A DNA stretch of 64,000 nucleotides from Planctomycetota bacterium (GTDB taxonomy: Bacteria > Planctomycetota > Planctomycetia > Pirellulales > UBA1268). The stretch lies in NCBI GenBank assembly GCA_016872555.1, contig VGZO01000010.1:1-64000 (forward strand), given 5' to 3'. Position 1 is the stretch's first letter, and the number at the start of each line of letters is the position of its first letter. Positions 60,397 to 61,917 of this stretch are shown one piece after another. The notes beneath the pieces are model-generated. The model saw only the letters and a list, made by a program, of their open reading frames with translations, was not told where the DNA came from and ran no database searches. A program made the position numbers and the translations under genes.

Positions 60397-60496
60397 TGAG
60401 CGGCGGTGAGTCGTAACGCGACCGTTGCGCGTGGCTGAGCGGCTACGGCTTGCTTCGCTTGCTCGACGAGCGACGATCGAAATCCGTTCCTGCGAG

Positions 60497-61687
60497 TCAG
60501 CGGTCCGAATGACGGAGTCCGGCAAGCTCCGGGACCCCGGCCGCGAACGACTCGGCCGTGACGAACACCGCCTCCCCCGCGGTCGGATGGGCGGCCTGAA
60601 ACTCGTCCACCGCGCGACGCGCCCGCTCGCCGACCGTGTCCCAGGTCACCTGCACTGGCGTCGGCATCCCCCGGTGCTCGACGACGAAGTCGATCTCGCC
60701 GTCACCGCGCCAGTACCACACTTCGCCGAAGCGGCGGCGCAACAGCAGGAACACCGCGCACTCGAGCTGCTTGCCACGGTCGTGGCCGGCCGTCGTGATC
60801 GACGCGCGCCGCAGACCCGTGTCGACAGGGTAGTACTTCCTGTTCCGCACGAGCCGCTTCCTCTCCGACCAGGCGAAGTACGGGCATCCCAGCGCGAGGT
60901 ACGCGTTCTCCGTGGCGTCCGCGTACAGCGCGGTCGTATCGACGGACATGCCGAGGGCGGCGGCCAGGCGGCGCAGGCTCGTCTCCGCGCCGGCCGATTC
61001 GAAGAGCATCTGCACCAGCCGCCTGAGCGGCATGCTCGACCGTGCCCCGACGCGCTCGCGGATGTCGCGCTCGACGATGTCGTGGAAATAGCCATGGAGC
61101 AGCCGGTCGTGGTCGGGTGACGAGACCGTGGCGGGAAACCCCCCGGCAGCGAGATAATCTTCCACCGTCGCGCCGGGCTTCACCGCGCGATACTCGCCGA
61201 GGTCGAAGGGAAACAGTTCGACCGTGTGGTGGCGGCCGGTCAGCGACGAACCGATCTCGCCAGCCAGCAGTCCGGCATTGGAGCCGGTGACGACGAACCG
61301 GCGGTGCCGCGCTCGGTCGAGCTGGGCGCGGAGCCAGCGCTGCCACCCCTCGACCCACTGCACCTCGTCGAGGAGGTAGGTGCAGCCGTGGCCACGGTCG
61401 TCCTCGAACGCCCCGACGAGCCCGTCGAGCAGCGTGTGGTCGAGGGTCTGCGTGAGTCGGGGATCCTCGAAGTTGATGAACAGGCACTTCGAGCGGTCGA
61501 GCCCGTAGCGCTCCATCAACTGCTCGAGCAGCGTCGACTTGCCGCAGCGGCGCACCCCCTGGATGACGAGTGCGACGCCCGGCACCAACTCGCGCGGCAA
61601 TTCGATCGACCGCGGAACGGTCGGCTTCGGCGGTGAGTCCCAATGGCTCCAGTCGGCGGCGATCGAGAGGAGCGCCGCCTTGTCCAT
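60497..61687 (-). CDS. AAA ATPase with DUF4143-type nuclease-like C-terminus
   Basis: 396 residues. AAA_14-type ATPase with Walker A GVRRCGKSTLLEQL (44-57), Walker B TYLLDEVQWVEGWQRWLRAQ, sensor segment FVVTGSNAGLLAGEIGSSL and TVELFPFDLGEYRAV, a linker winged-helix-like part (SLRRLAAALGMSVDTTALYA) and a DUF4143 end with a PD-(D/E)XK-like core: KQLECAVFLLLRRRFGEVWY (Glu), GDGEIDFVVEH (Asp), TPVQVTWD (Gln). Such proteins are widespread, often laterally transferred, and unassigned in function. It is a single gene between the S1 gene and an ABC exporter, and has a distinctive operator-promoter (61689-61736). Its ATG appears to be at the +1. Confidence 0.88.
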   Translation of the reverse strand: MDKAALLSIAADWSHWDSPPKPTVPRSIELPRELVPGVALVIQGVRRCGKSTLLEQLMERYGLDRSKCLFINFEDPRLTQTLDHTLLDGLVGAFEDDRGHGCTYLLDEVQWVEGWQRWLRAQLDRARHRRFVVTGSNAGLLAGEIGSSLTGRHHTVELFPFDLGEYRAVKPGATVEDYLAAGGFPATVSSPDHDRLLHGYFHDIVERDIRERVGARSSMPLRRLVQMLFESAGAETSLRRLAAALGMSVDTTALYADATENAYLALGCPYFAWSERKRLVRNRKYYPVDTGLRRASITTAGHDRGKQLECAVFLLLRRRFGEVWYWRGDGEIDFVVEHRGMPTPVQVTWDTVGERARRAVDEFQAAHPTAGEAVFVTAESFAAGVPELAGLRHSDR

Positions 61688-61688
61688 G

Positions 61689-61736
61689 GTGTCGAGTTTA
61701 GTCGACACTCTGTGGGGTGTCCAGTAAACTCGACAC
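61689..61736 (-). promoter_or_regulatory. Two 20-bp dyad operators in the DUF4143 ATPase promoter
   Basis: Site A (61689-61708) GTGTCGAGTTTAGTCGACAC has perfect 7-bp arms around GTTTAG. Site B (61717-61736) GTGTCCAGTAAACTCGACAC has the same arms with one mismatch, around GTAAAC. They agree at 16 of 20 positions and their centres are 28 bp apart. The outer 12 bases of A and of B also form a perfect 12-bp inverted repeat. Site A covers the -10 and start; site B covers the -35. This is a repressor-type arrangement. Confidence 0.7.
61695..61723 (-). promoter_or_regulatory. Sigma70-like promoter of the DUF4143 ATPase, leaderless start
   Basis: Reading leftward, TGGACA (61723-61718) and TAAACT (61700-61695) are spaced by 17 nt. 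The expected start about 7 nt past the -10 is at the ATG (61687), so the mRNA would have no leader. It lies within the two dyad operators. Confidence 0.6.
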
Positions 61737-61917
61737 TTCGGGTTTGCGATCGCCGTGCTGTGACGAGGCCGGTGCCAGCCTTTACTTCGGCGGCTGTCGT
61801 GGTGAACACGACCGATGGGCTCGCCGCCGCAGCCCGGCTGACACCGTCGGCGATCCGGCGACTCGTTCGCTTGCGTGGTACCACGCCGATCGAGCAGTCC
61901 GTCGGCTGGCGCTGCCG
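61737..61917. other. Intergenic spacer between ABC permease and ATPase genes
   Basis: 181 nt with nothing I can support: no tRNA, no clear terminator hairpin with a T-run, and no open frame with family features. Confidence 0.4.

Follow-up and report, generated by a model that had tools for sequence, protein, structure and literature searches.

Private Paired Dyads at the Promoter of a DUF4143 ATPase Gene from a Planctomycetota Bacterium: A Probable Autorepression Operator

Introduction

Autoregulated operators are a known kind of regulatory site. Plasmid ParA is an autoregulated Walker ATPase, and Orc1/Cdc6 sits beside its own boxes. The ATPase studied here, P0001, would resemble both as a nucleotide-switched ATPase that binds DNA beside its own gene, the binding by P0001 being a proposal of this study. 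Unlike ParA and Orc1/Cdc6, P0001 was seen with no partition partner or origin, and its operators are private to each subfamily.

The closest described defence system is PDC-S01. In the portion of PMC12988326 consulted, PDC-S01 is described as a single-gene system, the fourth most common defence across prokaryotes, in which an ATPase is fused to a member of the PD-(D/E)XK superfamily; 9,986 archaeal and 29,494 bacterial instances are given, and most defence candidates are said still to await validation. According to a passage of PMC13356809, PDC-S01 ranks first in frequency among individual loci of rumen genomes. A DUF4143 gene of Thermus thermophilus went up 6.6-fold in the combined presence of plasmid DNA and Argonaute (PMC4406477, section 7). 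RptR, as presented in part of PMC12255303, is a repressor that controls a defence locus, as is proposed here for P0001; RptR is a separate protein, whereas P0001 is proposed to be the repressor itself and its gene is solitary.

The main text of PMC12988326 contains none of the terms palindrome, inverted repeat, operator, autoregulation, and promoter. In the open-licence literature, judged partly from titles, no account of the mechanism or regulation of PDC-S01 or DUF4143 was found, and no earlier description of private palindromes at the starts of a large ATPase family was found in print there.

In this study, the window was a stretch of 64,000 nucleotides from a Planctomycetota bacterium (GCA_016872555.1, contig VGZO01000010.1, positions 1 to 64,000). 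Two dyads upstream of a DUF4143 ATPase gene, pointed out by a sequence-only reading, were analyzed.

Results and Discussion

Dyads and Promoter of the ATPase Gene

The P0001 gene lies on the minus strand at 60497–61687, with its ATG at 61687, and encodes 396 amino acids with AAA_14 and DUF4143 domains. Site A (61689–61708, minus strand) covers the -10 region and ends 1 nt 5' of the ATG, and site B (61717–61736, minus strand) covers the -35 region. The two sites had been described as near-identical, and 16 of 20 bases are indeed common in direct reading. When one site is reverse-complemented, 18 of 20 bases match, so the whole 48 bp forms a single large inverted repeat. The centers are 28 bp apart, as the coordinates confirm. 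The 7-bp arms claimed for both sites are perfect in site A; site B has one mismatch, and the claim was slightly generous for it. Eight of ten positions are paired in each site. When the 230 nt upstream were shuffled 2000 times with dinucleotides preserved, one shuffle scored at least as high as the dyad. No other dyad within the window reached a score of 12, and sites A and B are the strongest.

The promoter that had been read across the dyads, TGGACA-N17-TAAACT, was found on the minus strand. The -35-like hexamer TGGACA (61718–61723) lies inside site B; the -10-like hexamer TAAACT (61695–61700) lies inside site A, 7 nt from the ATG. In shuffled regions, the mean count of this promoter was 0.0 each. 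The dyads overlap the promoter of the gene itself, as expected for an autorepressor, the promoter being called by consensus only. Its position suggests a leaderless or near-leaderless start of the ATPase gene. Because of the dyad symmetry, a mirror promoter, TCGACA-N17-TAAACT, is present on the plus strand (61702–61730) and faces the 3' end of an ABC permease gene; it could yield antisense transcripts.

Conservation and Uniqueness of the Dyads

A contig scan of genomes returned 12 relatives, nine of them at 55–79% identity. A class-wide search found an orthologue in 2 of 397 genomes, own genome counted, and added one relative. The orthologue group consisted of 12 genes: the window gene, L013–L021, and L026 (11 together), and L132, a second copy in G402, the genome of L018. 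A 20-bp window with at least 7 of 10 positions paired was taken as a dyad. All 12 orthologues carry at least one dyad upstream. At least two dyad windows were found in 8 of 12, with a spacing of mostly 27–28 bp; L020 and L026 have a ladder of three dyads, and in L014–L017 the second site is degenerate or below the threshold at the expected place. The promoter, as TGGAC[AG]-N16/17-TAAACT, is retained in 7 of 12 orthologues, 7–9 nt before the ATG. In L019, the G403 orthologue, the frame is interrupted early by a stop in the codons just after 982 while both dyads are intact, which marks a decaying or misassembled copy.

The half-sites differ between subfamilies. L018 has TGACCAG in all four half-sites, versus TGTCGAG in the others, and L132 has AAAGTGCCTA. 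Both arms are altered together in L018 and L132, and in L018 both sites are as well. The dyads of L018 end about 30 nt 5' of the ATG. Thus, L018 is not leaderless, and the leaderless layout is not universal.

The 20-bp pattern was searched in the genome of the window (G000; 4,466,139 bases, 162 contigs) with up to three mismatches. In these 4.47 Mb, only sites A and B were found, and a looser dyad pattern gave the same result. Within its own genome, the operator is specific to its gene. Two computational outcomes would have counted against the sequence-only reading, frequent genome-wide occurrence and a lack of conservation at orthologues, and neither was seen. Without mismatch, the L018 dyad has one locus only in G402, at the L018 gene; with two mismatches, its matches are scattered through G402. 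The palindrome of a second paralogue was likewise unique in a genome search. In 12 genomes searched with at most one mismatch, the window-type dyad was found at orthologues and at two single one-mismatch sites, one in G402 and one in G403; the same search of G423 and G412 found none. In G418, a paired dyad match found blind led to a previously unknown orthologue, 78% identical, downstream of the dyads. A chance origin of the dyads is ruled out by the shuffles, the uniqueness in the genome, and the conservation.

A Solitary, Apparently Mobile Cassette

The dyads, the promoter, and the gene form a cassette of about 1.5 kb (60407–61916, minus strand). In the relative G423, contiguous flanks of 94% identity have neither the gene nor the promoter nor the dyads between them. 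G418 and G412 likewise lack the cassette at this position; G409 and G446 align to the window on the permease side only. Window-type dyads were looked for in the regions fetched from five relatives, and none were found. Since the empty site has neither the gene nor the dyads, the operator arrived with the gene.

Among 13 orthologue loci, four close relatives are at a common location, and two further pairs have one or a few genes in common; no conserved neighbor is common to all 13. No partner gene is therefore left to explain the operator. The ATPase gene is solitary and apparently mobile, moving as a one-gene cassette. Two further candidates were rejected. Terminal repeats of a mobile element do not fit because the dyads are internal to the insert and its end regions share no 10-mer, direct or inverted. 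A toxin-antitoxin operon does not fit because the 13 loci have no common partner and the plasmid records show no recurrent neighbor.

Domain Structure of the ATPase

Two Pfam domains were found in P0001, PF13173 (112 bits, cut-off 27) and PF13635 (69.5 bits, cut-off 28.1). Walker A (GVRRCGKST) and Walker B (LLDEVQ) are intact. The PADLOC PDC-S01 profile PDLC04787 matched with an E-value of 1.2e-80, no curated cut-off being shown for this profile, and by this match P0001 is a candidate phage-defence ATPase. NCBIfam and PHROGs gave nothing useful, and no solved structure proved to be a convincing relative by sequence.

The predicted model (mean pLDDT 91.8) contains an ATPase and a helical part, besides a winged helix and one PD-(D/E)XK-like domain; the domains were named here by their motifs and by how their elements are ordered. 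The sequence-only reading had placed a winged-helix-like part in the middle of the ATPase, and the confident model has one at residues ~219–287 (codons 60827–61033, minus strand). Its putative recognition helix covers residues 249–261 (codons 60905–60943, minus strand), as predicted in the same model.

The nearest folds by VIA-align were two archaeal STAND-like ATPases. SSO1545 (2fna) resembles P0001 in combining an ATPase with a winged helix (Z 16.1, rmsd 3.5, 253 aligned), and PABY2304 (2qen) has a similar arrangement (Z 15.9, rmsd 3.6, 257 aligned). The alignments span residues 18–298 of P0001 only, and the PD-(D/E)XK-like domain is outside. The SSO1545-type profile PF01637 scored 22.1 bits, below its gathering score of 33.2; the fold is still the nearest listed. 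The next matches were plant NLRs and CED-4, which have the STAND arrangement. A fold match alone shows no function. The model suggests for P0001 a STAND-like ATPase that carries a winged helix and, in degenerate form, a PD-(D/E)XK domain.

Palindromes in the DUF4143 Family

DUF4143 loci were surveyed in the own genome, its class, and genomes holding relatives. The survey gave 124 distinct DUF4143 genes; in 111 of them, the Walker anchor was usable and sufficient DNA lay upstream. A gene passed when a dyad in the 300 nt upstream of Walker A beat all 60 shuffles. Of these 111 genes, 46 have a private palindrome near the start, and among the neighbor controls 5 of 108 passed (Fisher p 2e-11, the surveyed genes being related and not independent). 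The controls were 188 neighbors minus 80 whose windows overlapped DUF4143 regions; 22 of the 188 unfiltered controls passed because divergent neighbors include the same palindromes. When the genes were clustered at 50% identity, 29 of 68 clusters had a significant dyad. In the remaining 65 of 111 genes, the best dyad was not above all shuffles. Repeated half-sites, visible by eye at some genes that did not pass, here and among the plasmid genes below, did not enter the counts. The palindrome at the start of a DUF4143 gene is common, not universal.

The result was replicated on viral contigs, with 8 of 23 DUF4143 genes versus 0 of 31 controls. For named plasmid genes, 5 of 16 beat all 100 shuffles and 11 did not. 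In 8 of the 16, no more than 5 nt separate the end of the best dyad from the start codon as deposited; in the survey, the distance runs to whichever in-frame start comes first downstream of the dyad, which makes it partly circular. Several plasmid genes have CCTTGCA half-sites in common, by eye. A second plasmid group, one archaeon included, had a significant dyad in 0 of 8. About 170 records of Acinetobacter plasmids contain a DUF4143 relative, and the one upstream region tested among them (L243) had no significant dyad.

The palindromes vary between genes, with arms of up to 20 bp, and paralogues in one genome carry different palindromes, as in G402. Below 50% protein identity, half-site similarity was weakly related to protein similarity (Mantel rho 0.16, p 0.004, some arms being chosen by eye). 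One palindrome, GCAAATCCTACATCG-n-CGATGTAGGATTTGC, is shared by L008, a DUF4143 copy of the own genome whose open frame is short, and L104, a longer gene in another genome. The own genome has ten PF13635 matches, of which nine exceed the cut-off; in G404, 20 matches were found. Across the class, a PF13635 match at E 1e-15 was present in 12 of 98 genomes, and the load of the own genome is unusual. In Treponema saccharophilum, a DUF4143 ATPase gene (L240, 832–2067) is flanked by HsdR and a gene for a class I DNA methyltransferase, a position inside a type I restriction locus.

Autorepression and Alternative Explanations

The dyads are private, centered on the promoter, transferred with the gene, and varied in a coordinated manner, the gene is solitary, and the protein has a predicted winged helix; autorepression by the ATPase is therefore probable. 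The dyads would be the private operator of the ATPase gene. The earlier proposal that the winged helix could bind them is now better founded because of the confident model, the single-gene cassette, and the palindromes at many other DUF4143 genes. Most likely, the ATPase would bind the dyads via the DUF4143 winged helix, as a dimer or in a higher oligomeric state. The bound ATPase would block RNA polymerase at the short or leaderless promoter and keep its own expression low. Gene and operator travel jointly as a one-gene cassette, and the half-sites evolve in each subfamily, so that paralogues in the same cell need not cross-regulate. Nucleotide control and a release signal, possibly phage-related, would complete the mechanism.

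The main alternative is that the dyads are a recognition or cleavage site of the PD-(D/E)XK domain, used in homing, self-recognition, or mobility, rather than a transcriptional operator. A typical winged-helix dimer needs a shorter palindrome than some of those seen at DUF4143 genes, which reach 20+20 bp. In this family, an ATPase is joined to a PD-(D/E)XK fold, and the member P0001 behaves like a mobile cassette. However, the PD-(D/E)XK-like domain of P0001 (residues 304–366; codons 60590–60778, minus strand) has QV[TS] in place of the ExK part, as do all 12 orthologues, whereas an ExK-like motif is present in most other DUF4143 family members. The P0001 clade is thus like PDC-S01 in having an ATPase and a PD-(D/E)XK domain and differs in having no ExK, which makes nuclease activity in this clade doubtful. 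Moreover, the dyads lie within the insert, with about 180 bp between them and the nearer end, the empty site has no dyads, and the dyads are placed on a promoter with conserved hexamers. A nuclease site is accordingly an unlikely explanation.

The operator could also be bound by a separate regulator, belonging either to the host or to the element. Operators alone do not name their ligand, and some phage-defence genes are under separate repressors, such as RptR (PMC12255303, in part). Against this, no conserved neighbor occurs at the orthologue loci, the pattern occurs in the own genome at the ATPase and nowhere else, and ATPases within one genome, such as G402, have different palindromes. A separate regulator is quite unlikely on these grounds, and a global host regulator does not fit private palindromes at all.

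It is highly improbable that the palindromes act as RNA hairpins across the start codon. Many of them overlap or abut the start codon, but the window dyads overlap the -35 and -10 hexamers and so would be mostly untranscribed from that promoter. No excess of G-T mismatches was seen (9 of 50, versus 8.3 expected if all types were equal). Rfam gave no match over the dyads at the gathering score; its sole match was far below that score and located elsewhere (RF01668, 16.8 bits versus 37, at 61845–61902). Orc1/Cdc6-like initiator boxes, at which the protein would start or recruit replication rather than repress transcription, are barely credible. In their favor, the first Foldseek match was Cdc6/Orc1 on origin DNA (2qby, E 6e-6, TM 0.28). 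Against them, VIA-align placed 2fna and 2qen closest and gave 2qby a Z of 11.3 and an rmsd of 8.8, and the cassette lies in a 112-kb contig between ordinary genes that adjoin in a relative.

Conclusions

Autorepression by the ATPase through its own winged helix is the best explanation of the dyads. A wider reading can be offered tentatively: the DUF4143/PDC-S01 ATPases might be one-gene switches, each a sensor and its own repressor, with the private palindrome at the start codon as off switch and identity tag. If this doubtful reading were true, up to ~20 paralogues could act orthogonally in one cell, and the nucleotide state or a phage-derived trigger would free the operator, so that the protein accumulates. 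In the P0001 clade, where the ExK is lost, binding of DNA may then be the chief activity.

The private operators at start codons open many PDC-S01 genes to the question of whether each protein binds its own palindrome and what releases it. The dyad is a DNA signature for locating orthologues, which succeeded once, in G418. The altered half-sites are natural sets for deciphering the specificity of the winged helix.
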